A DNA stretch of 64,000 bases from Nymphaea colorata (Eukaryota > Streptophyta > Magnoliopsida > Nymphaeales > Nymphaeaceae): contig NC_045143.1 in the NCBI RefSeq assembly GCF_008831285.2, positions 23,068,302-23,132,301 on the forward strand, read 5' to 3'. The stretch's first letter is position 1; the number at the start of each line of letters is the position of its first letter. Positions 30,404-63,224 of the stretch are shown piece by piece. Position numbers and translations under genes: made by a program. Below the pieces are notes generated by a model. That model did no database searches. It worked only from the letters and a program-made list of their open reading frames with translations, and was not told the DNA's origin.

Positions 30404-30504
30404 CCGAGAGAGTCTTTGATCACCCAACTGGTCTAACATAAGTAACTGGTGACTCACCACCGGACAATGCACTGTCATTGTCCAGTGAGCTATGGGCTGT
30501 CCTT

Positions 30505-37024: not shown

Positions 37025-37267
37025 TTATATACTGAGTTGAGCACGGAAGTCAGGGCCAACAAATGGCTTTGTGAAGTCATCAGCACATGCCATCCGTATA
37101 CGTTCTGGGGTAGCTGGATTGTCAAGAGGAAACCAATCAGTACATCCTGCCTCTAACCTTGCAGCTGCAATTGCATCTTTGATAGCAAAAAACACTGAAG
37201 ATGCAAGGAAGAAAGGTGGCTCTCCAACTGCTTTAGATGAATGTATTGCTTTCTTATTTGGTACACC
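37025..37267 (-). CDS. XDH: XDH terminal exon
   Basis: 80 codons and a TAA stop (37025-37027). Acceptor TGTTCAG precedes GGTGTACCA. It carries the [10 protein letters not shown] active-site Glu and the conserved [19 protein letters not shown] tail. No damage seen. Confidence 0.94.
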
Positions 37268-39374
37268 CTGAACATGTAAAAGATCCATAGATCAGTTTGC
37301 CGTGCAACTCATAAAAAATAATGCTGCTAGATATATAGAACAAGGATTGGAGAACAGCAAACTGGAAACAATTTGTTCAACTAAACAATCTGGCGTCTAT
37401 GTTTCCACGTGCCTATAGAATAAAAAAACTGGAAACAATTTGTTCAACTAAAAAATGATAAGCCCGTCCACCTCCCAAAATAAGTAATGGCGGTTCTGTA
37501 GTACAATAAATTGAAGACACTGACTTCAGTAATACTGAAGTATCAACAAAGCTAAGAAACGATTTTTAGTGATAATACCAGTTTTTTCAAAACTCAGTCA
37601 GATCAACCAAGTCAACTCAGTTGACCTGGTGACTCGATCCTCAATCTGGTCAAGAAACGAGAAAAACCAGGAATTGATATGACTAAACTGAGTCATCTGA
37701 GTTTTGGCCAAGTTGGCCGAGACATAGATTGGTTTAACCAAATCATTCATGTACATAATGTGTGCACTATACCAATCACATTAAATTTGTGTGTGTGTGT
37801 ACATTAAATTTTCACTATGATATGCATAGAGATCCATAATCCATATACATATAATAATAGTAATGTAATTGCAGTAAACATATTAATATCATTTGCAGTT
37901 CATAATACATTATCTTATTATACATATGGCTGTCACACGGGTACCTTTATTTGGGTGAAGGTACCCATGTTGACATGCGCATGGGCATGGGTACGCCCAT
38001 GGACACTGCCAGGACATGGTCAAACCTGTATCGGGTGCTGCCAATGCACCCATCACCATATCCATCCTTTTTTGGATTCAGTCAAAGTTAACCAAGTCTA
38101 TTTTTGTCCACTAATTAGGTTTTCTTTTAAACTAACACGTATATACAATGGAAATGAAGAGCCCCTGCCAACATTAAAGGGCTGTCCATGTTCTTTGTGG
38201 TCTAACTCCACTGCTCAGCAGGATTTTCCAACAACCTGCAATTTTCTAACAACTTAGTGTCCTTTAATAGAATTTTTTATAAATCTTACTTTTTGTTATA
38301 TATATATCATAGTCACAAAAAACATTTTTTTTTCCAAAAAAAAAAACACAAAAATGCAATAAATAAAATAGCTGTTTGAAACTCTTAAAAATCCTATTTT
38401 TAAAAAAAAAACATCAAAATGGAAAAAACGAAAAAAAAACATGTTCTTTTGTGTTTTTTCCTTTTTTTCATGTTTGTTTAAAGCCAAACTGTTTTTTTTT
38501 TCAGTTTCTAACTTTATTTATTGCAAAATTACTTATTTTTTATGTTGGCATTATTAGTTTCTCACTTATTTTATTTTTTCACTCATTTTTAATTTTCTTA
38601 ATTTTTAAAAAATTTGCTGCAATTTTCCCACTTTTTTGCCCGTGTTTTTCAAGCTTGCGAGAAAAACCTCGCTATTTAAAATGTGAGAAAGTTTTTGTGA
38701 CTACAATATATAATCACTGAACCATGACTGTAAGGTTCTGGTACCATCTGGAGACATCAGATGAGGGCCCTCATTTGATCTTTTTATATGTCCTTTTCGC
38801 TTTTATTTTGACTTTTTTTTTTTTGTATTTGGAAGATCGTGCGATCAAGGAGGAGAGGAAGAAAGGGGAAGGGATGAGCAGGATGAAGGGAGAGCTCTCT
38901 GCCGGCTGATCGCCTAGGCACCACTGTCGAGCGGCGGCAGGGGGACAAATAACTCCCTGCTTCCTCCCTAATATGAGGGAAGAGAAGGAGGAGGGGGTTT
39001 CTCCCCCTCCTGCCGCTGGTGGTCGGTGACCATCGAGCGGTGCAGGACAACGACTTGGGTGCTGCCGTCAAGTGGTAGGATGGGGAGAAAACTCCTCCTC
39101 CTCCATCACGTTAGGGAGGAAGGTGGGAAGGGGAGAGCACTTCCCTCCAGCCAACGGCCTAGGCACAGCCATCGTCAGCTGGCCAGCAAGAAGGGCAAGA
39201 AAACCCTCCTCCTTCCCTCCGTCCTCCATTCCACAATCTCAAAAAAAAAAAAAGGAAAAAGAAAAGGAAAGTGCACATCTAAATGTGATCAAATGAGAGC
39301 CCTCCACCAAAAAAGATGGAGGGCCCTCATTTGATGTCTACAGATGTCACCAAAATCTTAAGACTCATGGTCCA

Positions 39375-39414
<40 letters not shown>

Positions 39415-42400
39415 AAACAATAAAATTTAAGCAGAAAACACATACATTCGTTATTTATATTCATAAATTATAAATCATTAAACAAAAAAAAATCAAAATA
39501 GACAAAAAGTGAAAAATATGATTCTACTGTGTCCAAGGTGATTCATGTACTTGCACCCGCATCAGCCTCATTCACACAAGTGATGGGCGTGGCACTCGTC
39601 CAAAAGTGTCGGTATAACAACCTGACCCATTCTCAGACTAGACCAGGGCTCCTGGTCCAAAGAATTCCAATCCACTTCCTAGCAACTTTGTTTTTTGTCC
39701 TAAAAGGGCTAAGAACCAGAATATTCAAACATATAAGTAACATCTCTTCATCATTTTAGATACCAGACTAAACTTTTTAAAGTGAGATGTTACAATCCAC
39801 CACCCTCCTTAAGAGACACATGTCTCCATGAGTAGAACCCTAGGTTTGGGTGTTGATTCTAATTTCTGATACTACTGTAACAACCACATTCGGGACCCAA
39901 GTTGGTGGATCCCAACCTGCCCCCTAGTAGCTCTGGTTTCAACCCTAAAAAGTTAAGAACAAAAACACTTAACCAGCCCCCTTATAACTCCAACAAGATT
40001 TTACACAATGTTAGCTGCAGGACCAAACATTTCAAAGTATGATCTTACAATCCACCCTCCACAAAGCACATGTATTCGTGTGTCTAGGACCCCAAGTCTC
40101 CAGGTCGAACCAACTACGATATCTATTATGTTGGTTGCATGTATGAGGAGAGAGAAAGAGTAATGAAAATTGTAACATTAATCTGCCCTAATCTCTTATT
40201 AAAAGAGAAATAGGGTAAAACTGAACAATCATACAATAGGTCCAAAAATAAAACAAATATTAATAAAGAGCTGCTCCTAACTATTTAATATTCCAAAAAA
40301 CCACCTAACGTAAATACTATTTGACACTCCCTCTCAAGTTGAAGCATAGATGTTAAGCATGATCAGTTTGTCACAACATCTAGAAAACTCAGTAATAGGT
40401 AAGGATTTAGTAAAAATATCAACTGCTTGCTCTTCTGAGGCTACATGTATAGTAGATATGATTCCTCCTTAGACCATGTCTCTGATGTAATGGCAATCTA
40501 CTTCAATGTGATTTGTTCTCTCATAAAATATAGGGTTATTTGCAATGTAGGTGGCAGTCCTGTTATCTCAGAACTGTAAATCAATCCCAATCTTGAGAAG
40601 CAAATGCTTCAAGAGACACACTCTTGAAGATTCCAACACCTTCAATAGGTAATGCACAACCAAACCTCAAACTTGAGGAGAAGATAAATATATTAATCTC
40701 AAGAGAAGAGAACACAAGAGAGGCCTAAAAGCCTTAACAAAACAAGGGACAATAGTCCCTTATTTATAGTACAATGTAAGGGAGAGAAGAATGAGGAGTT
40801 GGCTGTTGGGCCAGCTCCAACGGCTAGAAATCTAGCCGTTGGAAGCTGGCCCAACAGCTAGTTCCCCTTTACAAAATAAGAAAAAGAAAAGAAATAAAAA
40901 AGGTACATAAAAAAGAAAAAGAAACAAATAAAATAAAATACATAAACACCTATGCATACATAGATATTCATATATACAAATCATACATGAAACTAGATGT
41001 ATGACAGTATATATGAAATATACATATGTATACTTACACAATGTCTAATCATTAAATTCTAACACCCCCCCTCAAACTTACGGTGTGATCACCGAAAGTT
41101 TGCCAAGAAGAAACTGAAATCGTGCTGAAGCAAGTGCCTTGGTGAAGAAATCTCCAAGTTGATATTCGGAAGGGACAAAGGACATATCGATTGTTCGGCT
41201 AAGATATTCTTCTCTCACATAGTGACAATCCATTTCAATATGCTTTGTCTTTTCATGAAAAGTATGATTGCTAGCAATGTAGATGGCACTTTTATTGTCA
41301 CAGCAGAGCTTGGTTGCTTCATTTAAGTCAATTTCAATGTCCTTCAATAAGTTTTTTAACCATACAATCTCTATGGTGGTGGTGGCCATGACACAATACT
41401 TTGCTTCAGTTGATGATAGAGAGACTTTATTTTGTTTTTTGCACCTCCACGAAATAAGAGTCACCTAGAAAAACACAAAAACCGGTGGTGGAATGCCTGT
41501 TATTAGGATCTCCATCCCAATCAGCATCAGTATAGGCAATCATATTCAAGTTTGATGAGGAGGATAAAAAAAGTCCTTTAGTGATTGTGTGTTTGACATA
41601 TCGAACAATTCTCAATGCAGCTCCCATGTGTACAGAAGTGAGTCTTTGTTGAAACTGACTTATGACATGTACAGCATGTGATATGTCAGGCCTTGTGATG
41701 GATAAATATGTGAGAGCTCCAACCAATTGACGAAATGGAGTGGGATTTTCTAGAATTTCTTCATCATCAATCTTCATCTTTACTCCTAAGGCTTCATGAG
41801 TGTCCACTACTTTGTCATCAGTGATTCCTGATCTGTTTATTATGTCATTGGCAAACTTCATTTGTGAAAGTAAGTATCCTTTTCTACTATAAGCTACTTC
41901 AATACCAAGAAAATAGGTTAGTTTACCCAAATCAGTCATTTCAAATTCATTCTTTAGAAAATCTTTTACTTGTATAATTCCGTTGGCATCATTACCTGTA
42001 ATAATCATATCATCTACATATAAAAGTAACACAATTATACCTACAACAGTATTTTTAACAAACATAGCAGTGTCAGCATAACAAGATTTAAAACCTTGTT
42101 TAAACATAACATTGCTAAACATGTCAAACCAAGCTTTTGGAGCTTGTTTCAAGCCATATAATGCCTTTCTAAGATAAAGAACTTTTCCTTGAGGTAAATC
42201 AAGCCCAGGGGGTGAATCCATGTATACCTCCTCATTTAAGTATCCATTCAAAAATGCATTTTTGACATCCAATTGATATATCGACCATTGTTTAATGGAA
42301 GCAATGGCAATAAGAGCTCTAACAGAGGTCATATGAGCAACAGAGGCGAAAGTTTCTTCGTAATCAATCTCATATTCTTGAGCATATCCTTTGGCAACAA

Positions 42401-45400: not shown

Positions 45401-48400
45401 CACAGCTCCAAAGAAAGAGAAATACCAGGGATCTTCAAGCTTGAAAGACAGCAAGACAAAGAGCCAAAACCTTGCTCTGATACCATGTAAATCAGTCCCA
45501 ATCTTGAGAATGCAAATGCTTCAAGAGATACACTTTTGAAGATTCCAACACCTTCAATAGGTAATGCACAACCAAACCTCAAACTTGAGGAGAAGATAAA
45601 TATATTAATCTCAAGAGAAGAGAACACAAGAGAGGCCTAAAAGCCTTAACAAAACAAGGGACAACAGTCCCTTATTTATAGTACAATGTAAGGGAGAGAA
45701 GAATGAGGAGTTGGCTGTTGGGCCAGCTCCAACGGCTAGTTCCCCTTTACAAAATAAGAAAAAGTAAAAATAGAAAAAGAAAAGAAATAAAAAAGGTACA
45801 TAAAAAAGAAAAAAAAAACAAATAAAATAAAATACATAAACACCTATGCATACATAGATATTCATATATACAAATCATACATGAAACTAGATGTATGACA
45901 GTATATATGAAATATACATATGTATACTTACATAATGTCTAATCTTTAAATTTTAACAAAAACATCTTCATAAGTATGGAAGTAGGAATACCAAGAATCT
46001 CAAGTAGGGATTTACACCATGTCATTTTTGCAACAGTTTGAGTCATAGCTCGATACTCTAACTCCGAACTAGACCTAGAAACAACATTTTGTTTCTTGTT
46101 TCTCCAAGATTTGAGATTTCCTCCCACAAACACACAAAACCCCATGGTAGACTTTCTATCATCAATAGATTCTGCATAGTGCATCACTATAGGCTTCAAC
46201 ATCAAGAGAGGTACCTTTTTTGAAGAAAAGACCCTTGCCAGGGGAGGACTTTAAATATTTGACAGCCATGATGATAACATCACAATGTGCCTTTTTTGGT
46301 CTTTTCATGAACTGACTTAGTTTTCCCACAACAAAACTAATATCTGACCAAGTTATAGTCACATGTAAAAGCTTACCGCATTTTTGACATCTAGTTGATA
46401 TAAGGGTCAACCATAATGCAAAGCAAGAAACAATAAGGCGCATGGTCCCCAACCTAGCCACAGGAGAAAAAAGTCTCAAAGAAGTCGACACCATATGTTT
46501 GTGTATATCCTTTTGTGACTAGACGAGCTCATAACGCTCCACTGAGCCACCAAACAAGTACTTGATGGTGAAGACCCATTTGGAGCCAGCAATATCACAA
46601 CGAAGAGGAAGATCAACCAAGTCTCATGCCCCCCATTGGAGCAAAGCATTTATTTCATCCTGCATAGCCTACCGCCATCTCGGGTCAAGTAATGTTTGTT
46701 GATGACCAGAAGGAACAAAGTGTGTAGACAATGCAGAGACAAACTACTGCAGGCTACCACCAAGAGCATCAATAGAAACAAATTCTGAGATGAAATGAAG
46801 AGTACACTATTGTTTGCCTTTGCGCAAGGCAATAGGTAAATCGAAAGGTATCTCAGAAGCATCCTCAATGACGTCAGGTGTACTTACATCCTAAGAAGAG
46901 ACCGGTAGGCGGTCATGAGCGGAAGCATGCCAGCAAATATAAACCAGTGGGAGTCACGAACTCTGAGGAAACCTAGAGGAGACTCACAAAGAACATATTG
47001 AAGGAGATATGGAGGAATAGATAAAGAAATAGGCAACGACATTTCAGACAAGTGTGAAGTCAACTGAAAGTAAAGAAGTGACTCAACGAATGTAACATCC
47101 GCACTGATGTACTACTTATTCATATTAGGGTCAAAACAAGTGTAACACTTTTGGTGCTTTGGGTGGCCAATAAAAACACATTTAATCGATTGAGCAGCAA
47201 GTTTGTCTGTAATAGGGGAAGGACGTGGATAAAACAGGTGCACCCAAACTCTTTGGGTGGAAAAGAAAAGAGGGTCTATCTAGACAAAGAAGCTGAATAG
47301 GAATTTGATTGTCAATGAAAGAGGATGGAAGACGTTAATTAGGTAACATGCAGTGAGATGGCATCACCCCAAAATTGGGTAGGAACAAAGTTATGTAACA
47401 TAAGTGTGCGAGTCATATCAAGTAACTGACGATGTTTACGTTCGACAATGTTGTTTTGTTGTGAAGTATGAGGACAAGAAAATTGAGAGCAAATTCCACA
47501 GTTGGAGTAAAATTGCAGCAAAGTACTTAGTTTGAACTAAAAAGCATTATTAATGTGAATATTTTTGACAATGAAACTATGATATACTTCTAGGAGTAGG
47601 TTAGAGTCTTTTTGAAATATTAGGAAATTGAAATGTGTTTATTTTATTGTTATCTTATTTTCATTGGACTGAATCTGTAATTTGGTTAAATCTGAGATTA
47701 GGGTTACATGAATAACAGTTAGAATGTTTCTCACTCTTTGATCGCAACTTGGTATCAGAGCCTTCTCCAGCGTCGACAGCCAAGTAAGTCCTCTGGCGAC
47801 TCCCTTCTCCAGTGATTTCTTCCTCCAACGACTTCCTTCCTCTTTCTTCTTCTCATCGCCCATCTTTATTCCTTCTTATCCACCAACAAGGAGGCGGTAA
47901 GAGAATAGAGTTTGGGTGTGCTGCATGGAGAAGAACCTGATCATGCCTATGTGGAAGGCATGATCAGATCCTTAAGTGGGTCTTGTGGTTGCTGTTTGGT
48001 ATGTGGAACAACAGATCGTGTGGAGCAAAGATCTGCTATTCTTAGATCATGTTCAAGGCGTGATGATCGTGGAAGTTGTTTTAACTTTGTACTTGACATG
48101 GATGGTGCTCTGCTGATTGTATGTGGGGCGACTGAAAGCAGGGCAGCAACAGTCTGCAGCAAGTAGCAAAAATCAGCAACAGTCTTCCGAAGTTTTGTAC
48201 GTGGACCTGCTACCATCCGCAAACAGTTGACTCAAATCTCTGTAAATTGTTAACTACTCTTTTTTATATTGTTCAGTTTTGGTTAGTTTCCGTGATTACA
48301 GATTCTTCCTGGTTGCCTAGCGTGTGATATTCGTATGATCTTCGAGGACAGTAGAGATATTTTTCTTTGTGGTGTTTGACTACTGCATCATATATATTGT

Positions 48401-51400
48401 ATATCAGTAGTTTTTTTTCCTCTACTATAGCTGATGGTAGTAGGTCAGAAGGTTCTAATGAATACAAGATGGTTGGTAACTCCTTTTGTTATGGAACCAC
48501 GATCAAACTTGATGGTTCAAATTATGAAATCTGGTCTAGGGTATTTATGATGTTCGTGGCTGGTCATAGGAAGAAATATATTCTTGAAGAAGATGAACTT
48601 CTTGAGAAAAAGGGGAAATATGCTGCGTGGGATAAAGATAATAACATTGTAATGTCGTGGATTATGAACAGTGTAGAGTCCCGTATAGCTCCAACAATTG
48701 CATACAACATCAGAGCTAAAGATATGTGGTTTTTCTTGAAGAAGACATATTCTTATGCTACTAATGTTATTAAGATTTTATAACTGGAAGATGAGCTTTG
48801 TAACATACGGCAAGGTGATCAAGTCATGTCACAATATTTTGCTACATTAACTGCTGCGTATGAATGGTTAAAAGCTCTTCGTCCACCTTGCAAGCACTAC
48901 TATGCATCACACATTGAAACTGGTATGGTAGCAAAGTTTCTATTTGGATTATCTTCAGAGTACCCTGTGGCAAAGTCTCAAATCCTCACAGGCAATGATC
49001 TTCCAGACTTAGCAAACACATACAATAGGTTGAGTCATCTTGCAGTCACTCTTTCTCAGCCTACGCATGACACACCAGTCTCTGCACTTGTGATACCAGG
49101 AGGACGTGGACATAGTTCTTTTGTTGGAACTAGGGGACGTGGTGGTGCATGTCGTGGTCCAGGATGCGGCAGATTTCAGTGCTCCTATTGTGGCAAACTA
49201 GGTCATTTAAAAGACCGATGTTGAGAAACAAGCATCCTCATCTCAGTTCTGTTGGTCCACCAGGGCGTGGTGGAGGGAAAACCATTGCAGGAAAAGGGTC
49301 TTCTTCATCTAATGCAACTTCCTCACAAGCTATAGCTTCTATGGTTGAGTCCCCTACCTGTTCTCCTATACCTCCATCGTATTCTCTCAACTTAAGTGAG
49401 GAGGAATATGATCTTATTTTCGCCCGGAGATCCTCCTCTACATCTACCAGCACTACTGCAATAGAGTCGGCTTTCTCTGTTGGTGCACCTACCAATGACC
49501 CAAGTATGATATGGGTGATTGATTCAAGAGATTCCAGGCATTGTTGTAATCAGCCACAAATGTTTTTACCATTAACCAGGTTCACTACACCACAACACGT
49601 CAGATTGGCTGATGGCAAGTTGTCCCCTATTCTGGGCAGTGGTAATATCTACCTCACACCTTTGGGCACCATTACACATGTGTTATATACTCATTGGTTT
49701 CCTGTTAATCTGTTATCTGTTAAGCAATTGGCTAGAGACTTACAGTGTAGAGTCATTTTTTATCTGGATTCATGTTCTTTTCAGGACTTACAAACTAGGA
49801 AGACGATTGGCGGCGGCCATAAACGTGAGGGACTCTATTTCCTTTATGTCCCAGTAGATGTTGTTGCATCCTTATTCACATCCAAAACCTTTCCTTTGCG
49901 GTAGGACCTCAGACTGGGTCATACCTCTATGTCCAAACTTTGTCGCATGTTTCCAGATATTTCTGCATCAGAGTCTTTCTTATGTGATGCGTGCCAGTTA
50001 GGCAAGCATACACGTAGCAGTTTTCCCTCAATCAGAGTCCATCTAGTCAAAGTCTTTTTTATCTCCTTCATGTTGATGTTCGAGGTCCTAGTCGGGTTTC
50101 CTTTCGTTCGTGTTTCTGGTATTACCTTGTTTTGGTTGATAATTTACTAGAGTCAGTTGGATATTTTTGTTACAGGAAAGGTTTAGTAATTTGAATTCTT
50201 CATAAATTTATCGAGGAAATAAAAACTCAGTTTGGTTTCAATGTCAAAAGTATAATGCTCTTGAATTTAAATCTTCAGTTCTACTTCAATTTTATGTCAA
50301 TCATGGGATTCAACCACAATATACATGTCCCAACAAAATGGTATTACTGAATGCAAACATCAATAACTCTTAAATGTGGCCTGCACCCTCATGTTGCATA
50401 CTCATATGTCTGCCTACTTTTGGGGTGATGCTATTCTTATCGCATGCTATCTCACTAACAGATTGCCCTCGTCTGTCATCCAAGAACGCATTCCCATTCA
50501 AATACTATATCCGGATCGACCATTATTTCAGCATTCCCATTCAAATACTATATCCGGATCGACCATTATTTCATATACCTCCTGTTGACGTGTTTTGTTG
50601 TTTTGGATCATCGGGTCTGGGTCTAGATCCGCTCCACTCTACTGTTTTGTCGGGTTCTATTTATACACGTGTAACCCTGTTTCAGTATGAAAATGAAAAA
50701 TTAGTAGAGAGAGAGAGTCTGGCTGCTAGTGGGCGTCAAACCTCCTCTATCGTGGTTTTTTCCCCCAAGTTGGATTTTCCACATTAAATCACTGTTCCAT
50801 TCGTTTTTTCCTGTTTCAACATGGTATCAGGGCCTACTAGGTTCTGATTTTTTTTTTCTTTGCTCGGGTTGGACGAGGAAACTTGCCGGTATCGTTGTCG
50901 TCGCCTGACTTTGTGCTAGCCATCTGGTCGCCATTCGCCTGTGCCACTTGCGTCACCTGCTTGTTGCCTCCTCTGCTGCGATTGTCGTGGAAGAGTTGCT
51001 TCCGCTTCATGCCCTTCTCTCTGTTGCATCGCCCGACAGAGACTGCTGCAGTCGACGCTCTTCTCTCTGCTGCATCACCCGACGACTGTGAACCCTTGCT
51101 GAATCTGTTGTGTCGCCTCCATTCTTCTCTCTGCTGCATCACCCGACGACTGTTGACCCTTGCTGAATCTGTTGTGTCGCCTCCATTCTTCAGCTGCCGC
51201 CTGGGTCGATGGCTGTTTGTGCTGCTATCTGACCTGCAGTCACCTGGGCTTTCTTCACCTATCGTCGGACGGTGCGTGCTGCTGTCTCTCGTGTTCTCTG
51301 CCGTCAAACGTCTCAGCTGCGGAGCTTAGGTGAGTCTTCTGTGAGGCCCCTGCTGTGCATCGCCAAGGGTCGCCTGTTTCTACATTTCTGCCAAATGACG

Positions 51401-54400
51401 CTCCCTGTTGTTGCTTTCTGCTGTGTCGCATGGTCTAGCGAGTGACCTGCTCTGATCGACGACAACATCTTCCACAGTTTCTGCCTACTGCACAACTTGT
51501 TGTCGTCGTCCATTGCCCGAGCTGCCAGCATCCTCAGCATCTGTGAACACTGTCCGTCGCTCGACTCAGCTCGACGCTCTGTTGCCTCTTTCGTCTTCAG
51601 CCTTTTGCGACGTGGCTCTCTTGCTGCCACGGTGCTTCCTCCAGTGTTGTTTTTTCTTCTGCCAGTGCTCTGTATCTTTGCAGTCTTCCAACTGCAGTAG
51701 AGACTCTTCTTCCCTATTAACTCCATCTGTATTGTTCACGTTGCAGACGATGCCATTTCTGCCGCTAACAGTATTGCATTGTTGAGTTGTTGACCATACT
51801 GTTGTGCTACTTTGTGATGGCTGAATCAAGTTCCTCAGTCGTTAGTACTGACCCGGTAGAAGTTGGAGTCTATAAAACAGAAAATGTTCCTGTGCAAGTC
51901 ACCACTATCTGCCTCACTAAGGATAATTACCTACAATGGTCTGCCGCTATTACTATAGGGATAGCTGGTCGGGGGCGAATTGCATATATCAATGGAAAGA
52001 AGGTTGAACCTCCTGAGACGAATCCTGCTTCGGATACTTGGTTCCTTGAAGACAATCAAGTCAGAACTTGGATTGTTATCTTTGTATCTTCTGATATTCA
52101 GCCTCTTATCCTACGTAAGAAGACTGCCAGAGACGTAGGGTATTTTGGAACAAATGTATGGCCAAAAGAAGAAGGATGTTCGTGTGTACCAGCTCATGAA
52201 GGACATCTATGCTCTACGACAAAGGGAGCTTTCTGTGGCTGATTTTTATGTGATATTGAAATCAAAACGTGAAGAACTTGACTACTATTTTGATGACACG
52301 TGGAGTTGTCTTCAAGACCAGCTGCATCATTGGACTCAAGAATGGAAGAATAGGGTGTTTTGTGCTCTTGGCAGGGCTTAATGATGAGTTCGAGGGTATA
52401 AAAAGTCAAATTCTCAATTCAGACGAAATGCATAGCATTGAAGAAGTTTATTCTTGTATTGAAGCTGAGGAGCAGAGACGTCTTGTTATAACAGGAAAAA
52501 AGGAGGCTCATACCTCTTACACAAAAAGATCTGCCCTTGTTAGTCATGCCCCTATGGGGGCCAACCAATCCTTTCGAAAGTGTACTCACTGCAAGAAGAC
52601 TGGTCACACCGTGAAGTTTTGTTGGGACTTGCATCCTAAAAAGAAGAATGGTCGTGGGAAGTCTTCTAGCGGGAAGAAGCCTAGTTCTGGTATGATTGAA
52701 TCTAATGGAGGAAAACCATCAATCTCTGCTGAACAGATTCGTGAGCTCTGTGCATACTTGAGAGACATCGGACGATGTGAAAATTAATCATGCCCTTGCA
52801 GTTTCTGGAGAAAAATATAATCCTTGTAAGGGAGAATTGATTGTTGACCGTGGTGCCACCCACCACATGACTGGCAATCCTAAGTTTTTTCATGAGTATA
52901 AGCTCTCATCGGGAAAGAAACGTGTGAAGAGTATTCTCCAAGTCAAAAAACTCAATTCATAGATTTTCTGGAATACAAAAGGGAAGAGAGTCAAGTTACA
53001 GTTACAGATGCTCTTGAGCATGAGAAAGATGAAGGTTGCCCTACAGGGTTGAGCATGAGAAGGATGAAGGTTGCCCTACAGGGACTAAGGAAGAACGTAA
53101 CCGCTTATTTGGGCAGGTTTATTCTAGCCAAAAATTGCCTACAGGTGAGGTAACTGGTGGAAAGAATTCTACTCCCAATCCCAATGCTACACCTTCTTTG
53201 GATGACCCAAGTCGTGCTCGGGAGGACTCAGTTGAAAAGGAGTTTCAGACAGAGGTTGCTAATGACCAGCTACCTATCCCCCTTAGAAAGGGGGTCAGGT
53301 CATGTACTCAACATCCTGTTGGTAACTTTATATCATATTCTAAATTGAACAAGGACTACAAATGTTTTATATCATTGCTTTCTTTGGTTGTGATTCCCAG
53401 GAGTGATTCCCAGGACTGTCACTGAGGCTTAGAGCAATTTCAGGTAGACTCATGCAATGCAAGAAGAGATGGAATCTCTAAGCAAAAACATGATGTGGGA
53501 GGTGGTAAAGATCCCTGAAGCGGCTCATCTGGTTGGATCCAAGTGGGTTTACACCATTAAGTACAAACCAAACGAAAGTGTTGATAGGTACAAAGCTCGC
53601 CTTGTTGCCAAGGGATTCAGTCAAAGATATGGAACTAACTATTTGGATTCTTTTGCTCCTGTTACAAAGATGAAAATTGTTAGAGTTATTATCTCTTTAG
53701 CAGTAATAAAGGAGTAGAAAATGTACCAACTTGACGTTAAGAATGCTTTTTTCGATGGAGACTTTGAAGAGGATGTGTATATGTGTATGCCCCCATTATA
53801 TGAAGAACCAGAAAAGTGCTGCAAACTGAAGAAAGCTTTATATGGGCTCAAGCAATCTCCCCGAGCATGGTTTGAAAGACTTAGACTAGTTATGAGACAA
53901 CATGGTTATAATCAAGGAAATAGAGATCATACTCTCTTTGTGAAGAGGAAGGAACATAAAGTTACTCTTTTGTTAGTTTATGTTGATGATATAATTGTTA
54001 CAGGTGATGATGAAGATGAAATAACAAGATTAAAGGAGTTATTGGCTGTCGAGTTTGATCTCAAGGACCTTGGCAAGCTAAGATATTTCTTTGGTATTGA
54101 AATCGCAAGGTCTGGCACGAGCCTTGTGTTGAATCAACGAAAATACACTTTAGATTTACTAAAGGAAACTGGAAAACTGGGGTGTAGACCTGCTTCTACT
54201 CCTCTAGATGCTGCACACAAGCTCAGTATTAGAGATTGAGAACCTCTCTGTAAAGAGACCAAGGGAAGGTATCAACGTCTGGTTGGAAAGTTGATCTATC
54301 TTACTCTCACTAGACCTGATATTACCTTTGTTGTGAATGTGATGAGTCAACTCATGCATGCTCCAACAGATGCTCACTTGAAAGCAATTCACAGAATCTT

Positions 54401-57400
54401 GTGTTACTTGAAGAAGAATCCCGGCAAAGGGCTCCTATATGTTAGGCAAAGTCCTCTCAAGATTGAGGGGTATTCTGATGCTGACTGGGCAAACTGTGTT
54501 GATACTAGGAGATCCACCTTAGGCTACTGTGTCTACCTGGGAGGGAATCTCGTAGTATGGAGGAGCAAGAGACAAGATGTCTGCTCCCGCTCTAGCGTAG
54601 AAGCTGAATACAGAGCAGTTGCCATAGGAGTTTCTGAGCTACTATGGCTGAAGGAATTATTGATTGACATTGGTATAAAGATTGAAGGGTTAATGAAGAC
54701 GTATTGTGATAACAAGTCAGCAATCAACTTGGCCAACAACCCAGTGTTATATGACAGAACAAAACATGTTGAGATCTATGTCACACGGGTGCGGGTGCGA
54801 TATGGGGATACGGGTGTGGATACGACAAGTTTCACAATTTTTGAATACGCGGATACGACAAATATAATATTCTCTATAGAAACAGTAGAGACACAGGAAA
54901 TAAAAATCGAACACGGATCTAACGTGGAAAACCCTCAACGAGAGGGAAAAAACCACGGGTGAGGTCTGGTGCCCACTAGCCGCCAAACTCTCTCTCTCTC
55001 TTAGAATTTCATTCACACTAGAAATTAGGGTTACACGTCTTTAAGTAAGGCCCAACAAGGACTACAAGCTGGATCGGGTCTAGATCCAGACCCGGTCTCA
55101 AGACCCATCTGTACATGCTTCAACACTCCCTCTCAAGTTGCGCATACATATCAAACATGCTCAACTTGGATACATTCCTCTCAAAAGAAGTTGAAGATAG
55201 AGCTTTAGTCAGAACATCAGCGGTTTGGTCTTCAGACTTCATGTAAAGTAAGATTAACTCTTTAGCATCAATCCTCTCATGGATAAAGTGGTGATCAATC
55301 TCAACATGCTTTGTTCTGTCATGTAGTATAGGGTTATTGACTAGGTTGATTGCAGATTTGTTGTCACAGTACATCTTCATAGGTCCTCCAATCTCTATCC
55401 CGATATCAGCTAGCAATATTTTTAGCCATAGTAACTCTTACACTCCCATAGCAATAGCTCTATACTCAGCCTCTGCACTAGATCGAGAACACACATCTTG
55501 CCTCTTGCTTCTCCAGATAACAAGGTTTCCTCCCAAGTAGACACAGTACCCTGAGGTAGACCTTCTAGTATCAGCACAACCTGCCCAGTCAGCATCAGAA
55601 TACCTTCTATCTCAACAGGCTCTTGTTTCACATATAAGAGCCCCTTGCTAGCATTCCTCTTCAAATAGCACAATATTCTGTCCACAGCCTTCAAGTGTGC
55701 ATCAATAGGGGCATGCATGAATTGACTCAGTACATTCACAGCAAAAGTGGTATTTGGTCGAGTGAGGGTAAGATAAATCAATTTCCCAACAAAACGTTGA
55801 TATCTTCCTTCGGCTTCTTCACATAGCAACTCTCCATCTCTAAGGCTCAACTTGTGCCCAGCATCAAGAGGAGTAGAAGCTGGTCTACACCCCAGCTTAC
55901 TGGTCTCCTCCAATAGATCTAGTGTGTATTTCCGTTGATTTAACACAGGGCCGGTACTGGACCTAGCAATCTCAATACCAAGAAAGTACCTCAGTTTACC
56001 AAGATCCTTGAGACCAAATTCGGCAGCCATGATCACCAACTAGTACCGACAGCAACCCTGGACGACGAAACCACCACCGGCGGCGTTAACCAAAACACTA
56101 GCAGCGGCAGAGCTAGGCAACGATGTCGGGCTGCAGCCAGAAACCAGCACCAAGAGCAGTCGGAATCGGTGGCAACAATGGAAGCAACGGCGGTGGCGGC
56201 GGCGGTGGCGGCGGCGGTGGTGGCGGCGGCGGCGGCAGCGGTGGCAGCGGCGGCGGAAGAACAAGGGCAGCGAACAATGGAATGGTCAGGGCCAGAAGTT
56301 CACCGCCGGCAAAATTTCACAAACTAGAACTTTGCTCTGATACCATGTAGAAACAGTAGAAACACAGGAAATAAAAATCGAACACGGATGTAACGTGGAA
56401 AACCCTCAACGAGAGGAAAAAAAACCACGGGTGAGGAGGTCTGGTGCCCACTAGCTGCCAGACTCTCTCTCTTAGAATTTCATTCACACTAGAAATTAGG
56501 GTTACACGTCTTTAAGTAAGGCCCAACAAGGGCTACAAGCTGGATCGGGTCTAGATCCAGACCTGGTCCCAAGACCCATCTTTACATGCTTCAACATTCT
56601 CAAAAAATTATAAATTAAAAAAACAAACAAACAAAACATTGTTTATCACAAAACATTGTTTATCAATATCATGATTATCATCATTCTACTCACTGTCAAT
56701 GCCCACATCGTCCTCAGACTCAGCTTTTTCATCCACAATTTCACATGTTGATGGAATAGAAGGTTCTTCAAATCTTGAATTAACAACTTCAAGTTCATTG
56801 TCGTCTTCTAAGTTAAAGTCCTCAACATTCACGTCCCAAGATTTAGTTTCTCATTCCGTACGAGACAAATAAATAATTATACAACACTACAACAGCAAGC
56901 GTGATGGGTTGTTCGTTGATCTTTGTGATGGACATGATGGTTTGTTGACTTTTTATTTTCTGCTTTTCTGTTTGGTCATTTGTTTGCAGCCTCTCCTAAA
57001 CCAAAAGAAAGATTGGTTGGTAAAGAGTTCTTCTCTATTTCATGTACTTTTCATAACCTGCAGTTCCATGATTTGGGAGGCAAATTTCTCAGCAATAGCT
57101 TTAACCATATCGCCAAAATTTTGAGGACCATCTCTGTTATGGCCCATGTCGAACCAGCAGGTTCAGCAGTAGAACCGCGGAACTGTTGGAGAACCAATTA
57201 GCACTGAATGATGCAAGCAGCGGATAGATTAGCAAGATCACCGCCTGCATGAGATACAAGTTTTTGAAATGCACTTAAAATTGGAATTTCTCAGCAATAG
57301 GTGCTTCTTGTCAAATTACAAGCATCTAAAAGAGCATAATCAGTTTTATCTACGGTTATTTAGAGAGTTAGCGATGAAGATCAACGAACAACCCATCACG

Positions 57401-60400
57401 CATCACGCATCACTCAACAAAAAAGTTAATGAGTTACAAAATCCGAAACCTTAAAAAAACCCCAAATGAAGAACACAGTTAAACTCGAAAAGAAAAAAAA
57501 AACCCACTTACCTGTCTGTCGCCGGCTGCTGCCGGCGACGATTCCCATTTTTTCATTTGAGTCCAGTCTTAGGAACTCGAATCCCGTTGATGGAATTGGT
57601 ATCTGAACCAAGGAATCAGTTAGATATGTCTTCATTTGTAGTGATTTATCATTCACTGCCCGGACGTTGCCGTGGGTCGCCGGAGGCTACTGTATCTACC
57701 ATTGCTCGTTGGGTGAAGGTCGGCCGTCGGTGAAAAAGGAAGAAGGTCGACCTAATTTAACATTTAACGGATCAGTTTTTTAGCTTTGGATCGGGTCTGA
57801 CCCAAACCCGATCCAAACGTATCCATGAAGTATCTGTATCTGAATCACCGTATCGGCGTATCGATACGAATACGTGGGCTAATCCCATGTATCCGTGTGA
57901 CTTAGGTTGAGATTGATTGTCACTTTATCCGAGAAAGAATTGATGCTAAAGAACTAGTCCTACCATATATGAAGTCCAATTGTCACCTTATCGGGGAGAG
58001 AATTGATGCTAAAGAACTAGTTCTACCATATATGAAGTCTGAAGATCAGACAGCCGATGTTCTGACTAAAGCCTTGTCTTTGACCTTGTTTGAGAGAAAT
58101 GTATCCAAGTTTGGCATGCTTGATATGTATGCCCAACTTGAAGGGGAGTGTTAACGTGTTTTATTGTTTTGGATCATCGGGTCTGGGTCTGGATCCGATC
58201 CACTCTACTGTTTTGTCGGGTTCTATTTATACCCGTGTAACCCTGTTTCAGTATGAAAATGAAAAAATTAGCTGAGAAAGAGAGTCTGGCTGCTAGTGGG
58301 CGTCAGACCTCCTCTATTGTGGTTTTTTCCCTCAAATTGAGGGTTTTCCACGTTAAATCACTATTCCATTCGTTTTTTCCTGTTTCAACAACTCCCAAAG
58401 TATTTGGATGCACTTCATTTGCACACATCTTAAGACCAAACAAGAACAAACTTGTTGCTCAAGCTATCAAATGTATATTCATTGGATATTCTATCAATCA
58501 AAAAAGCTATTGGTGCTTTAATCCCCAAAACAAGAAAGAGATTGTCAGTGCGGATGTTACATTCTTTGAGTCTCGTCCTTATTTTCCACTCCATGTCCTA
58601 CTATGTCTGAGCTTTCAGTTTCTATTCCTCTTCCTATTCCCCCAGTATCACTTGAGTCTATTCATTCCCCTCCGCCGCTGTCATGTGAACGTTTCCTTGA
58701 TTCTCCATTAGTCTATACTCGTCGTCAAGGTCCCTCTCCAAACCGCCCACCAGAGTCTTCTTATGAGGTAAGTTCCACTGATAAGACTGACTCAGGTATA
58801 AATGATGACTACTCTACAGATGATCTACCTATCGCCATTCGCAAGGGCTAGCGACAGTGCACAATGCATCCGATCTCTAGCTCTGTTTCTATGGACTATT
58901 TGAGTACAAGTTTAGTGCAGTTTGATCGACCTATGCCTAGTCACACTATCTCGTCTTCTCACCACCAAGCCTTATTAGATTCACGGTGGAAGCAAGTCAT
59001 GCAGGAGAAAATGGATGTTCTTCTTTCTAGGGAGACTTGGGACTTGGTGGATCCACCGATGAATTGTGATGTTGTTGGCTCTAAATGGGTATTCACCATC
59101 AAATATCATTCTGATGGTTCCGTAGAGCAATTCAAAGCACGTCTTGTTGCTAAAGGCTATACATAGACTTATGGAGTTGACTTCTTTGAGACTTTTTCGC
59201 CTGTGGCATGGTTAGGCACTATTCGCCTAATTATATCTCTCGCAGTTCAGCATGATTGGCGTCTTTTTCAACTTGATGTGAAAAATGCATTTTTATATGG
59301 CGATCTCTCTGAAACTGTCTATATGCAACAACCACCTGGTTTTGAACGACAGAGGGAGCGTTCCAAGGTGTGCAAACTAAAAAAGGCTATCTATGGACTT
59401 AAAGAGAGTCCCCACGCATGGTTCCACAAGCTAAGTGAGGTTGTCTCTAAGTGTGGATTTCAAAGATCCCAACTTGATCACTCGTTGTTCATCAAGCGAG
59501 GCATATCTGGTATAGTGATATTGATTGTATATATTGATGATATTGTTCTCACAGGGGAATGTAATCAAGAGATAGCTCAGACGGAGGAATTCCTACAAAA
59601 GACCTTGGTCAATTTTGTTATTTCTTTGGTATTGAAGTAGCTCGTAGTAGTAAAAGGGTTGTGATGTCTCAAAAAAAATATGTTTTTGATCTTCTACAGG
59701 AAACGGGGTTATTGAGAGCCAAACCTGTCACACTTCCTATGAATCCTCGAATTCATATTCATGATGATGAATCAAAGATTCTTGACTCTCGATCTTACAG
59801 ATCTCTTATAAGAAAACTTTTATATTTGACTATCACTCAACCTGACATTAGCTTTGTTGTGAATAAGCTAAGGCAATTCATGAAAAAACCTCGAAAAGTT
59901 CATTGGGAGGGGAGGTTGCTTTAATTTGTGCAATAATACAGCTTGCATTCTACTGTAGCATATGAAGTGGCAAGGTTTGGTAAGTTACAAGTCATAGTCA
60001 CAAAGAACCAGTTATTTAAAAAAAAAAACGCGAGAAAATGAAATGCCGTTTAAAACTTAAAAAAAACGTGTTTTTTTTATAAAAACGAAGAAAAACACGT
60101 TTTTAACGCATTTTTTCATTTTTTTAACGCCAAACAGTTTTTTTTTCATTTTCTATTTTTTATTTGTTGCAAATCTACTTATCTTTTAATATTTGTGTCA
60201 TTAATTTCTCACTTATTTTATTTTTCCCCACTTTAAGTTTTTTATTTTTAAAAAATACCGTTTTTTTCCCCTTTTTTTCTCATATTTTTCAAGCCCGCCT
60301 TATTATACCCGAGAAAAAAATCACCGCTTAAAACTCCTCACCGTTATTTGTGACTATGGACTTACAACCAATATGGTACATCCGTACAGCTATGTTGCTG

Positions 60401-63224
60401 AAACTAGTTTCGTGGGTATATCATGTTGCATTTCTTCATAATTAGGTTTTGTAACATATTGTACGATATGCTAAAAACACTGTTAAATAAAATCACAGAC
60501 ACATAAAAATTAAAGGAAACGTAAATGGATAACATGGAAAAGAGGGGAAGAGGTATGCAATCGTAACCTGCAGCAGTGACACAGTAAACTTGAGTGGAAT
60601 GTCATTTACAGTTGGGATCTTGTAGCTTCCTGGCCCACGAGTATAAAGCATGCCTTCTTTAACCCACTTATGATCTGCATCCCCCATTTGAGCTCTTCCA
60701 ATGCAACCCATCCCAATCCCTGTATGAAAGCTCCTTCGATCTAAACCAAACACAAATAAGCCAATACATGTTACAGTTGTTTACAATGACTAAATGTGGA
60801 CAAATTATTCAACACAAAAATTAATGCTCAATTTCTACCAAGGAAGAGTTACCAGTGGCACCACGTGCATTCTGATCATTTACACATGCATGGAATATGC
60901 TAGAAATTTATGAATATGATGTTTGCACTACTATTAACTTGAAATAACAGGGGTAATTGTTGAGGCATGGAAACAGAGCAAAACTTTTTTGGTTCTCACT
61001 CAACCAATAAGGCTGCTAAACGGTAGATAGGACAGTGCCAAAGTGTGTGTTTTGTGAAGGATAACACGTACTTGTGGCATAAATGGTAAATTCTTTATAT
61101 ACACTTTTCAGGTTGCTTGAGGTAGATAGCCTACATAAAAATGGACAACTCGGAAAAGAAATGTTCTGAAAACTGAGATTCCTGACACAGGTTTACCATT
61201 GCTGAAAATTACATGGTCTGTGTAAAAGAAAAAGTATCCATTGCATGGACTACATATATGGAAAATTCTCTATATCATGACACGTAGATTAATAATGTTG
61301 GTATACTTGTTAACACACGTTCTTTATGGTGTCTGCTACATGTCATAGTGATTCAATATTTTGTTTCTTCGAAAATATTAGATGATTTAATAAATTTGGA
61401 TTCTCATGTTATGCAGTAACTCCTCAGCTTGCATAACTTTTTAATCATGTACTAGATAGAAAAGTGCGTAAACCCAAGAATAAGGAAATTATACTACTAA
61501 GGCTTCTTAATAGTTTGACTATCCAAGGTGTTTTTGCTCTTTCATGAGCGTCTATGCAAGTGCATACGTGTATGTCACATGTGCAAAAGCCAAGTTTTTT
61601 CCTTTTTCCTTTTTTCAAGATCTTTCCCTTTTTCTTCTATTCCCTTTTTTTCTGCTCTATATTTCTTTTCACTTGAAATTAAGGATTGATTTTTCATGTT
61701 GCTTAATTCTTAAAAGAAAACAATAGCCAATTTTAAATCTTGATTTATTTTTATAATATGTCAAGCCAATTCAAGTTCCATGTAAAATATGTTTTTGCAT
61801 TGAGACTAGGAGAACCTTAACTTCAAGCCCTTTAAGCCAAAGATGGACCCAAGTCCTTTAGAATGGGACCTAAACTCATGTTTTAGAAACCAAACACTTC
61901 AATCAAGTTCTCTGACATCAGTTACAGAATCCAATGTAGAATTGGACCAAGGTAACAGCTTGTCTGCTGGAATTTGACTTACTGAGTACAATTTCAGAAA
62001 TTCTCGACAAATCTTTGTGAGCCAAGTGATGCCAAACTCTAACCCGGATTGCTTCCTGACCTCCTGGCTTCTAACTTGCTTAATCAGTACTTTAACCACT
62101 TTCATTCAATTGCTGCATGTACCAGTAGAATGGTGGCCATGACAATCATTAGACCAAGATAACATGTAACTGTTTGATGCGTCTTTTTTTTTTTTTTTTT
62201 TGCTGTAATTTGACAGACACATTTCACAGTCAGAAATGGTTTGGTTTTACTGTGGATTTTAACATTTAGTAGTGCCCTCTATTTTTGTCTTTTGGGAACT
62301 GCCTAATATGCCTTAAGCCTGCCTACGCCCTAGTCTCAGGCCCTCAACCAACTACCTAGGCTGCACAAAACATTTTTGACAACATAGGACCAATTTTACC
62401 AAAAAATGCAATAACAAGTTCATTGGTATCCAGAAAAGCAAGTTGACTAATAAATCTTTCTTAAAGTGTCATGTATACAAGAGCATGACATAATGAAGAA
62501 TTTGAAATATATACCATACCTGTCCAACATCAATTGCAGGATTCAATGAACATCCCAGATCCATAACAATATGTGTTGATCTTGTATGGAAATCGCCTGT
62601 TAGTGTATCTATTTCTACTTCAGCAAATGCAGCACCATAGGTATAATAACTGAATGGCTTCCCTTGCCCAGTCTTCCAATCATATCCAATATCAGGGGTA
62701 ATGTAAAAGCCATGAGCAGATAGGTCAATCCTTTCCATAAAGCAGGCATTTGCAAGCTGATAAAGTAGAAGGCAGAAAATTAGTTAAGACATCTAAAATC
62801 CTTCTACAATATGAAGAAACTCCAAGAAAAAAATTTCATGAAGTCCTTGATAGAAGAAAACAAATCTGGAAACATGTTTGCTGGGCATAGACTATATTAA
62901 AGACCAATGAGTGGTTATGGAGGATGTGATAGATTATCTTGAGCAATTTACCTTTACAAGGTTAAAGATTTTAACAAAGTGCATAGAGGTTCCAAATGTT
63001 GATGTAAGATGAAAATGGTCACTAATGATTGGTTCACGAAAAATAATGCTTGAATTAACTTGAAAAAAGAAAAGGCTTTCATAGAGTACCTCTGCAAAGG
63101 ATTTATGCTTATTCTTTAAAACCAGAGGTTTCATGCGTGCCTTGATTTGTTCACAAGCATCCAAAACTGCAGCCCCATACATATCAGAGCTTGCAGATGC
63201 GGCAGTGGGTGATGCATTAGGCAC
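37025..63224 (-). CDS. XDH: Xanthine dehydrogenase, last four exons, frameshifted (5' part lies outside the window)
   Basis: Oxidises hypoxanthine to xanthine and urate in purine breakdown, using molybdenum cofactor, iron-sulphur centres and FAD. Exons in transcript order: 63090-63224, 62520-62756, 60568-60740 and 37025-37267. They encode about the last 262 residues of a protein usually about 1,360 long, all in the molybdopterin-binding domain. Clear blocks are [46 protein letters not shown] and [13 protein letters not shown], which carries the catalytic Glu (Glu1261 in the bovine enzyme). Plant XDH rather than aldehyde oxidase is indicated by the [12 protein letters not shown] and IDLSAHGF wording. 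All borders are GT/AG and all joins are phase 0. Exon 60568-60740 has lost one base, so the frame as read here stops making XDH. The final intron is 23.3 kb and full of transposons. Either a pseudogene or a sequence error; the rest of the exons look well preserved. Confidence 0.9.
38308..38704. mobile_element. MITE copy A, TAGTCACAAA family
   Basis: Starts CATAGTCACAAAAAAC and ends GTTTTTGTGACTAC, an inverted terminal repeat of about 12 bp. The interior is very AT-rich and clearly aligns with copy B at 59984-60368 (shared CTCACTTATTTTATTTTT and TTTTTCAAGC). No coding capacity; target duplication unclear because of TA-rich flanks. Confidence 0.65.
38715..39377. mobile_element. TIR element of 663 bp with long inverted repeats
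   Basis: The left end CACTGAACCATGACTGTAAG... is matched, inverted, by the right end ...GACTCATGGTCCAGTG over about 60 bp on each side, including ATGAGGGCCCTCAT on the left and GAGGGCCCTCATTTGAT on the right. The GC-rich centre (38870-39230) contains diverged internal copies of CGAGCGG and GGAGGGAAG-like segments. Its open frames have no domain. It lies directly next to MITE copy A. Confidence 0.7.
39378..39411. repeat. (TA)n microsatellite
   Basis: About 16 TA units directly after the right end of the 663-bp TIR element, which hides any TA target duplication. Confidence 0.9.
39615..40128. repeat. Two diverged tandem copies of an LTR-like unit
   Basis: Units at 39615-39877 and 39878-40128 both begin TAACAACC and share TCCTAAAAGGGCTAAGAAC-like sequence and TTACAATCCACC. 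GTTACAATCCACC stretches are common around plant gypsy LTR ends, but no internal region is present, so the identity is open. Confidence 0.5.
40129..40325 (-). repeat. Candidate 3' LTR of C5
   Basis: 197 bp with TG...CA ends (TGTTGGTT...TTTGACA on the plus strand). The polypurine tract CAACTTGAGAGGGAG (minus strand) touches its boundary. No second copy remains in the window, so the outer end is a guess. Confidence 0.6.
40575..41064 (-). repeat. 3' LTR of C4
   Basis: TGTAAATCAATCCC...TTCTAACA on the plus strand. It contains the long inverted repeat at 40802-40858 missing from its partner. Confidence 0.92.
40802..40858. repeat. Near-perfect hairpin in the 3' LTR of C4
   Basis: The arm 40802-40827 (GCTGTTGGGCCAGCTCC...) is repeated inverted at 40832-40858 with a single extra base, around a 4-base AAAT loop. 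The other LTR keeps only the first arm and joins straight to TTCCCC. Confidence 0.9.
41078..45190 (-). pseudogene. C4 gag-pol polyprotein with a few lesions
   Basis: Gag begins at ATG 45190 ([13 protein letters not shown]). In-frame stops occur at 44888-44890 and 44420-44422. The zinc knuckle [13 protein letters not shown] follows at about 44360-44400. A frameshift near 44160 precedes the protease, whose active site reads FYSGAS where DSGAS is expected, so the catalytic Asp is Tyr. The frame from 44123 to 41427 is then open for 898 codons: integrase ([30 protein letters not shown]), linker, reverse transcriptase ([18 protein letters not shown]) and most of RNase H. A 1-base loss near 41460 shifts RNase H into the frame that ends at 41078. 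Otherwise well preserved, so these lesions are probably later than insertion. Confidence 0.94.
45486..45958 (-). repeat. 5' LTR of C4
   Basis: 473 bp; lacks the second hairpin arm present in the 40575-41064 copy and has small indels in the AAAAGAAAAAG-type tract. Confidence 0.92.
50488..50573 (+). repeat. 43-bp perfect tandem duplication in C2 integrase
   Basis: 50488-50530 repeats at 50531-50573. Length not divisible by three, so it shifts the frame, 10 bases before the C3 insertion point. Confidence 0.92.
50583..50821 (+). repeat. 5' LTR of C3
   Basis: 239 bp, TG...CA ends, followed by the primer site. Contains AGTATGAAAATGAAAAA and a GA run. Confidence 0.93.
50822..50834 (+). other. Primer binding site of C3
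   Basis: TGGTATCAGGGCC, one base off the initiator methionine tRNA complement. Confidence 0.9.
53014..53083 (+). repeat. 35-bp tandem duplication in the C3 linker
   Basis: TTGAGCATGAGAAAGATGAA... at 53014-53048 repeats with one mismatch at 53049-53083. Not a multiple of three. Confidence 0.9.
54875..55125 (-). repeat. 3' LTR of C6
   Basis: 251 bp; the outer end reads TATAG where the partner has TGTAG. The RNase H stop codon overlaps the inner end. Confidence 0.92.
55120..56039 (-). pseudogene. C6 remnant: end of reverse transcriptase and RNase H
   Basis: Starts inside the palm/connection part ([21 protein letters not shown] at about 56030), reads through [20 protein letters not shown], then shifts near 55600 and again near 55430. 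RNase H continues with [15 protein letters not shown] and [15 protein letters not shown] to the stop at the LTR edge. The catalytic YVDD part and everything upstream is missing. Confidence 0.9.
56186..56250. repeat. GGC/GGT trinucleotide repeat in the C6 leader
   Basis: About 20 GGN units; on the transcribed minus strand these are CCN/GCC repeats in the leader between primer site and deletion point. The Gly-rich reading frame on the plus strand is an artefact. Confidence 0.88.
56346..56596 (-). repeat. 5' LTR of C6
   Basis: 251 bp with TG...CA ends, followed on the right by TTCTC. Confidence 0.92.
56686..56850 (-). pseudogene. Acidic C-terminal coding remnant inside the TIR transposon
   Basis: A minus-strand frame of 54 codons from an in-frame TGA to a TAG at 56686-56688. 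It is very rich in Glu and Asp (for example [15 protein letters not shown] and [12 protein letters not shown]). It looks like the acidic tail of a longer protein whose upstream part was deleted. Such tails occur on plant transposases, but no catalytic motif is visible, so the link is inference. Confidence 0.35.
57512..57656 (-). pseudogene. Candidate first exon inside the TIR transposon
   Basis: On the minus strand an ATG at 57656 opens 48 codons and ends at a strong splice donor (ACAG/GTAAGTGGG). GC content and codon phase look like a real 5' exon near the right TIR. I do not recognise the protein. A second possible exon, reading [20 protein letters not shown], ends at CTGCAG/GTTATG near 57055. 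Could be the transposase gene remnant or a captured host gene piece. Confidence 0.3.
57916..58041 (+). repeat. 63-bp in-frame tandem duplication in C3 RNase H
   Basis: 57916-57978 and 57979-58041 each encode a copy of the [15 protein letters not shown] segment. It begins three bases after the TIR transposon's target duplication. Confidence 0.92.
58149..58390 (+). repeat. 3' LTR of C3
   Basis: 242 bp, preceded by polypurine AAGGGGAG and followed by ACTCC and the resumed C2 reading frame. Confidence 0.93.
59984..60368. mobile_element. MITE copy B, TAGTCACAAA family
   Basis: Begins GTTACAAGTCATAGTCACAAA and ends with the inverted TTTGTGACTATGGACTTACAAC, about 20 bp of imperfect terminal repeat. 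Aligns with copy A (38308-38704) along its length. It lies 200 bases before the XDH exon 60568-60740. Confidence 0.68.
60568..60740 (-). CDS. XDH: XDH penultimate exon with a 1-base deletion
   Basis: The first part reads [19 protein letters not shown] in the frame set by the previous exon. After a run of five G (60681-60685 on the plus strand as C) the match continues only in another frame ([10 protein letters not shown]...VSLLQ). 58 codons need 174 bases and 173 are present. Borders TTTAG/ATCGAA and CTGCAG/GTTACG are intact. Confidence 0.92.
60741..62519 (-). other. XDH intron of 1.78 kb
   Basis: AT-rich with a poly-T run at 62186-62202; no coding signal on either strand. Confidence 0.75.
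62520..62756 (-). CDS. XDH: XDH internal exon (79 codons)
   Basis: Acceptor TATCAG/CTTGCA and donor GGACAG/GTATGG. Encodes [18 protein letters not shown] and the strongly conserved [19 protein letters not shown], then NPAIDVGQ. Intact. Confidence 0.94.
63090..63224 (-). CDS. XDH: XDH internal exon (45 codons)
   Basis: Acceptor TTTCAG/GTGCCT and donor GCAGAG/GTACTC. Encodes [18 protein letters not shown], a molybdopterin-domain block specific to XDH. Intact. Confidence 0.93.

Follow-up and report, generated by a model that had tools for sequence, protein, structure and literature searches.

Introduction

Introns swollen by transposable elements (TEs) are common in plants. About 11% of the rice gene models have been reported to possess heterochromatic introns, and many of these genes are transcribed (PMC7145194); in Arabidopsis, RNA polymerase II elongates through intronic TEs (PMC10241880). 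In both species, the loss of H3K9me2, EDM2 or IBM2 leads to premature polyadenylation at intronic TEs (PMC7529245, PMC10241880, PMC7145194). For instance, the Arabidopsis immune gene RPP7 carries a single element, COPIA-R7, in its first intron, and EDM2 regulates a poly(A) site within the 5′ LTR of this element (PMC7529245). The targets of rice OsIBM2 have long TE-bearing introns and varied functions, and intron 7 of Arabidopsis IBM1 contains organelle DNA ahead of the exons for part of the catalytic domain, where a truncation would lose activity (PMC7145194). Large introns have also been described on a genomic scale: grapevine possesses 2,697 introns of 3–100 kb, more than 80% repetitive and rich in Copia (PMC3058033), 876 of 2,184 Chloranthus orthologs have genes above 20 kb (PMC8626473), and conifer introns reach up to 1.49 Mb (PMC10473749).

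Here, we describe the terminal intron of a xanthine dehydrogenase (XDH) gene from Nymphaea colorata. Since the introns of grapevine, Chloranthus and conifers are similarly large and filled with TEs, it represents a known type of structure, of which it is a good example; it does not differ from them in kind, but the order of its insertions is unusually legible. Like RPP7, it contains Copia elements, the sense LTRs of which are possible premature poly(A) sites. However, whereas RPP7 has one element in a first intron and its epigenetic control has been demonstrated (PMC7529245), the XDH nest, known here from sequence alone, has five levels and occupies the terminal intron of a gene with a metabolic role. 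It shares the long TE-bearing intron with the OsIBM2 targets and its position as the last intron with the heterochromatic intron of OsJMJ718, whereas rice heterochromatic introns are enriched promoter-proximally (PMC7145194). As in IBM1, foreign DNA precedes catalytic sequence, although the insert there is of a different origin and its effect has been demonstrated (PMC7145194). In the one literature library searched for plant XDH introns with retrotransposons and for nested retrotransposons in spliced introns, this locus was absent. It offers a readable and datable record of five successive insertions into the same intron of a metabolic gene that is present in single copy, directly before the exon for the catalytic Glu, and a convenient locus at which to test transcription and splicing through heterochromatin, as well as the roles of sense and antisense LTRs in ending transcripts.

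The xanthine dehydrogenase gene

The window, i.e. the whole 64-kb stretch of DNA that was analysed, contains four minus-strand exons that encode the C-terminus of XDH. Exons A (63090–63224) and B (62520–62756) match Pfam MoCoBD_2 with E-values of 5e-9 and 1e-25, exon C (60568–60740) comprises 173 nt in two frames that each match XDH, and the terminal exon D (37025–37267) consists of 80 codons plus TAA and contains the motif AVGEPP, the Glu of which we take to be the active-site residue. The reading frame is open and maintained in exons A, B and D. Exon D matched rat XDH 1245–1314 in phmmer with an E-value of 4e-22; exons A and B together with the start of exon C matched bovine XDH (E 2e-46), and the remainder of exon C together with exon D matched rat XDH (E 1e-34). 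For each query, the best PDB matches were XDH, with higher bit scores than aldehyde oxidase (AO).

While a search of the 64-kb window yielded no further XDH pieces, the gene extends past it into the adjoining 20 kb. There, a 530-aa open frame matches Fer2_2, FAD_binding_5 and CO_deh_flav_C in Pfam and aligns to bovine XDH 99–166 and 207–585; for this frame, too, XDH outscored AO in bits. Five more upstream pieces match XDH/AO-type Pfam domains: three clearly exceed the cut-off (MoCoBD_1 with 122.6 and 37.5 bits, MoCoBD_2 with 72.1), a fourth is above it for MoCoBD_1 (36.3) and just under it for Ald_Xan_dh_C (30.0 against 31.3), and a fifth stays under it (MoCoBD_2, 24.9 against 27). The gene thus possesses FeS, FAD and MoCo-binding domains and is nearer to XDH than to aldehyde oxidase. 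Its first exon is likely located near 83 kb (extended coordinates, by eye), which would give a gene length of about 46 kb; no N-terminal exons were recognised between about 82.9 and 78.3 kb in these coordinates. The intron preceding exon A is also large, with approximately 8.2 kb (about 71385 to 63224, extended coordinates), and shows copia-like fragments by eye.

To assess the copy number, a 118-aa C-terminal query was searched against the genome (407,766,735 bases in 783 contigs), with seven candidates being scored. It returned two matches, both at this locus, which correspond to exons C and D. A second XDH locus with the same terminal exon, the observation that the initial annotation had named as speaking against its reading, was therefore not found in the 408-Mb genome with this query.

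The terminal intron

The terminal intron spans 37268–60567 on the minus strand and comprises 23,300 nt. It is of phase 0 and the GT-AG type: exon C ends in CAG/GTTACG, and exon D follows GTTCAG/ (CAG/GT...AG/GG). The 23.3-kb intron of the initial annotation is thereby borne out at exactly these limits, with the exon for the active-site Glu split from the rest of the gene, and a full-length XDH mRNA would have to be spliced across everything that the intron contains. By our delineation, in which some element limits were set by eye, 21,709 of its 23,300 bases (93%) are mobile DNA; a single block, formed by the copia elements C5 and C2, accounts for 85% of the intron.

Some features speak against easy splicing. 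The donor is weak in its predicted pairing with U1 (−5.6 kcal/mol, against −5.7 and −7.7 for the window's two remaining donors), and 75 of the 1,241 intronic GTs pair with U1 at least as well. AATAAA shows no excess on the sense strand of the intron (22 sense, 26 antisense), so that poly(A) sites in the LTRs are an assumption. Scans with Rfam and ARAGORN returned zero families and zero genes, respectively.

Architecture of the nest

Five copia elements and one element with terminal inverted repeats (TIRs) make up the nest. C5 (40129–47578, minus strand, 3′ LTR at about 40129–40325 by eye) is its outermost host and lacks its 5′ part from the integrase onward. Its RNase H region harbors C4 (40575–45958, minus), which has both LTRs. 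C2 (47579–59910, plus) starts with its 5′ LTR in the C5 integrase and is interrupted in its integrase/SH3 region by C3 (50583–58390, plus), again with both LTRs. The RNase H region of C3 in turn contains the TIR element (54776–57905), which holds the internally deleted C6 (54875–56596, minus, both LTRs). The orientations agree with those given initially: C4, C5 and C6 are sense to XDH, C2 and C3 antisense.

C3, C4 and C6 each show paired TG..CA LTRs and a 5-bp target duplication, with some deviations: the flanks of C4 (AGAAC/AAAAC) and C3 (CCTCC/ACTCC) differ by one mismatch, and those of C6 (TTCTC/TTCTC) are exact, with the left LTR beginning with TA. C2 and C5 each retain a single LTR. The domain order, integrase before reverse transcriptase, is that of Ty1/copia: it is apparent in C2 and C5 by tblastn and in C4 within one 898-aa pol frame with gag_pre-integrs, rve, SH3 and RVT_2 (Pfam). 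C3 matches RVT_2, while C6 has kept just the end of the reverse transcriptase and RNase H (RVT_2 27.1 bits, under the cut-off of 31.6).

The TIR element is flanked on both sides by an 8-bp target duplication (GTTGAGAT/GTTGAGAT) and has short inverted ends (CTATGTCACACGG/CTAAGTCACACGG, 12/13 alike), which is characteristic of hAT-like elements; the one piece of it that was scanned contains no Pfam family, and we refer to it as non-autonomous. Among 11 genomic relatives, seven contain the end with the C6 site, which L024–L027 do not show, and in all seven this site is empty, with adjacent flanks that overlap by 4–5 bases at the target site. The left edge of the element lies at 54774–54776 in four relatives and farther left (54761–54769) in three; the right edge lies at 57905 in L023, the sole relative that reaches this side. 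The element also includes a perfect 25-bp inverted repeat (56899–56923/57377–57401). We considered this repeat as an extra insert and rejected it, as L023 aligns across the stretch; judging from this alignment, it probably belongs to the TIR element itself.

The host frames rejoin across their inserts: that of C5 across C4, where a single stop codon marks the junction, that of C2 across C3 as ..PLFHIPPKVFGC.., and that of C3 across the TIR element. Together with the target duplications and the empty C6 sites, this substantiates the nesting originally described, namely C3 in C2, the TIR element in C3, C6 in the TIR element, and C4 in C5.

A fifth level: C2 within C5

The initial annotation counted four levels. 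Our comparisons put the number at five, since C2 itself sits within C5. Homology to the C5 integrase is strong up to 47548, where none of 1000 shuffles scored as well for either of two queries, and drops beyond this point (47549–47707) to a level that 268–402 of 1000 shuffles attained. A BLAST alignment had run through the latter stretch as if the C5 integrase continued; this candidate was rejected on the grounds of the shuffles and of genomic relatives of C2, which identify it as C2 LTR. C2 has many such relatives: there were 605 first-look candidates, of which 40 were scored and gave 42 matches, and 11 loci were fetched. Sequence matching 47584–47748 is found in all 11, downstream of their reverse transcriptase, where it represents the 3′ LTR; in the six relatives viewed, the LTR starts at a TG directly past a purine tract, which places the start of the C2 LTR at 47579 by eye. 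The C5 integrase is also matched by nine of the 11 loci. In six of these nine, the match ends near the locus end, but in the three that continue, by 46, 205 and 46 bases, the homology to C5 stops at 47577, 47585 and 47577 (within 47571–47585). The C5 coding sequence thus stops where the C2 LTR starts: C2 was inserted into the C5 integrase, and the deepest path runs from C5 through C2, C3 and the TIR element to C6.

It could be argued that C2 and C5 are independent fragments that came to lie next to each other, with four levels as the maximal depth. Both are truncated, and as the far side of the proposed insertion is absent, a target duplication is not demonstrable. Nevertheless, we find this quite improbable: an independent truncation of C5 would need to end at precisely the first base of C2, whereas the integrase of the testable relatives simply continues past the point at which C5 breaks off. 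On its other side, C2 has lost its 3′ end, and its right edge falls somewhere from 59910 to about 59950; ungapped-style matches extend to 59905–59910 in most cases and to 59925 in three, gapped ones to 59910–59950. Given that C2 lacks its 3′ end and C5 its 5′ end, a single deletion, reaching from within C2 past the 5′ LTR of C5, plausibly took both.

Age of the insertions

The K80 distances between paired LTRs are 0.018 (SE 0.006) for C4, with its left LTR trimmed one base short, 0.042 (SE 0.013) for C6 and 0.066 (SE 0.017) for C3. At 1.5e-9 substitutions per site per year, these values correspond to approximately 6, 14 and 22 My, and at an alternative rate of 1.3e-8 to 0.7, 1.6 and 2.5 My. 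A rate of 1.51e-9, near the former value, has been applied to magnoliid relatives (PMC8626473). These ages follow the order of the nesting, although the values of C3 and C6 overlap within error and their difference is not significant. The earlier statement that the order of events is directly readable thus stands for the nesting, but not for the LTR ages.

A frameshift in exon C

The initial annotation overlooked a one-base frameshift in exon C. The length of this exon is not a multiple of three, and the XDH homology lies in two frames, one of them with ..LEELKWG, which meet at 60681, within a run of five Gs (60681–60685, CCCCC on the plus strand) that is the sole run of at least five Gs in the four exons of the window. 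As assembled, the gene therefore has no intact open reading frame; read literally, translation would end in exon C, ahead of the intron, and XDH cannot be assumed to be functional. Because the other coding sequence seen is open and the genome shows no second copy of the C-terminus, a base-call error at the homopolymer is the most likely explanation from the sequence at hand. Against this, the published Nymphaea colorata assembly, which the present one resembles, had undergone polishing with both Arrow and Pilon (PMC7015852), which makes a residual base error less probable.

Taken at face value, the shift at the G run would mean that the XDH gene of this plant, or of this haplotype, has lost its function and that the giant intron is tolerated since the gene no longer matters. 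We regard this as unlikely. Not only exons A, B and D but also the upstream 530-aa frame are open, whereas a gene that had been dead since the insertion of C3, the LTRs of which have diverged by 6.6%, should by our reckoning carry more damage; if the frameshift is real, it must be recent. Moreover, the genome holds no back-up copy of the C-terminus, and plants deficient in XDH are described as impaired (PMC3916724). Were the shift nevertheless genuine, the sequenced individual would be a natural XDH-null plant. Another alternative is that the assembler misjoined the two exon groups, which lie 23 kb apart on either side of a highly repetitive intron. We deem this extremely improbable: the window is free of Ns and part of one 26.3-Mb contig, the nested joints show target duplications, and the only genome matches to the 118-aa query are in order, on the same strand and phase-compatible.

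Proposed history and expression

We thus consider it likely that the locus represents an ordinary single-copy plant XDH gene with a base-call error in exon C, the last intron of which grew by insertions and at least one deletion and is silenced and spliced. In this history, the order of the nesting shows that C5 arrived first in the main stack, with C4 and C2 landing in it afterwards; C3 inserted into C2, the non-autonomous hAT-like element into C3, and C6 into the latter. By analogy with other plants, these insertions may have been tolerated for lying between intact splice sites, the intron may constitute silenced heterochromatin through which RNA polymerase II reads, and proteins of the IBM2/EDM2 type may suppress poly(A) sites in the sense LTRs, such that the intron is spliced out. 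The intron contains TEs, as do those of IBM2/EDM2-type heterochromatic-intron genes, and we think that their mode of read-through and splicing may apply at XDH too. Counted from the donor, a polymerase would meet the upper edge of C6 after 3,971 nt, C4 after 14,609 nt and the 3′ LTR of C5 after 20,242 nt.

The head-to-head arrangement of C3 and C6 creates a long inverted repeat (54043–54775 and 55298–56029, 573/738 alike). The sense strand of 54043–56029 is predicted to fold at −1060 kcal/mol, compared with a mean of −550 in eight mononucleotide shuffles, with 620 arm-to-arm pairs and a longest perfect run of 23.

One might go further and regard the intron as an epigenetic switch on XDH, which yields full-length transcripts as long as the nest is silenced and transcripts terminated in the LTRs of C6 or C4 when silencing slips. 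We consider such a role very unlikely, and it presupposes that the frameshift in exon C is a base-call error. If it were true, the pre-mRNA hairpin of about 730 bp formed by C3 and C6 might supply small RNAs that maintain the silencing, and the terminated XDH would end 80 residues early and thereby lack the active-site Glu, but keep its FeS and FAD domains. Plant XDH is known for a superoxide-forming NADH oxidase activity (PMC3916724), and the shortened protein might retain it.

Smaller inserts and neighboring repeats

The intron contents listed in the initial annotation, i.e. C2–C6 and the TIR element, were all recovered, but several small inserts had been overlooked. A dispersed repeat, X, occupies approximately 37931–39487 and is split by two MITE-like inserts. 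Its part at 37931–38281 matches 18 other genomic places; in one relative only (L019), the left and right parts (the latter near 39390–39487) lie 66 nt apart, compared with 1,109 nt here. The inserts are a MITE-like repeat (38308–38703) with a TIR of about TAGTCACAAA and 21 other places in the genome, and a MITE-like element (38706–39386) with 68-bp terminal inverted repeats (82%). A second MITE-like copy with TAGTCACAAA lies at 59995–60364 (score 190, whereas the best of 100 shuffles reached 42). A candidate third copy at 63870–64000 was rejected, as it did not score above shuffles (26 against 25, 28 against 29).

Outside the XDH intron, the window contains a separate copia element, C1 (2303–7560, plus strand), which is related to C3 and C6 and has LTRs that are 94% alike (K80 0.058). 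Argininosuccinate lyase (ASL) exons are found at 10900–19890 on the minus strand, of which 12766–13218 matches a chloroplastic plant ASL with an E-value of 1e-52 and the others were assigned by eye, and reverse-transcriptase-like fragments, Ty3/gypsy-like by eye, at 33449–34076 on the same strand. Finally, there are six two-copy tandem duplications of 35–85 bp with 91–100% matches (12247–12416, 30324–30404, 50488–50573, 51059–51191, 53014–53083 and 57916–58039), four of which lie within C2 or C3; candidate causes are repair, slippage or assembly.
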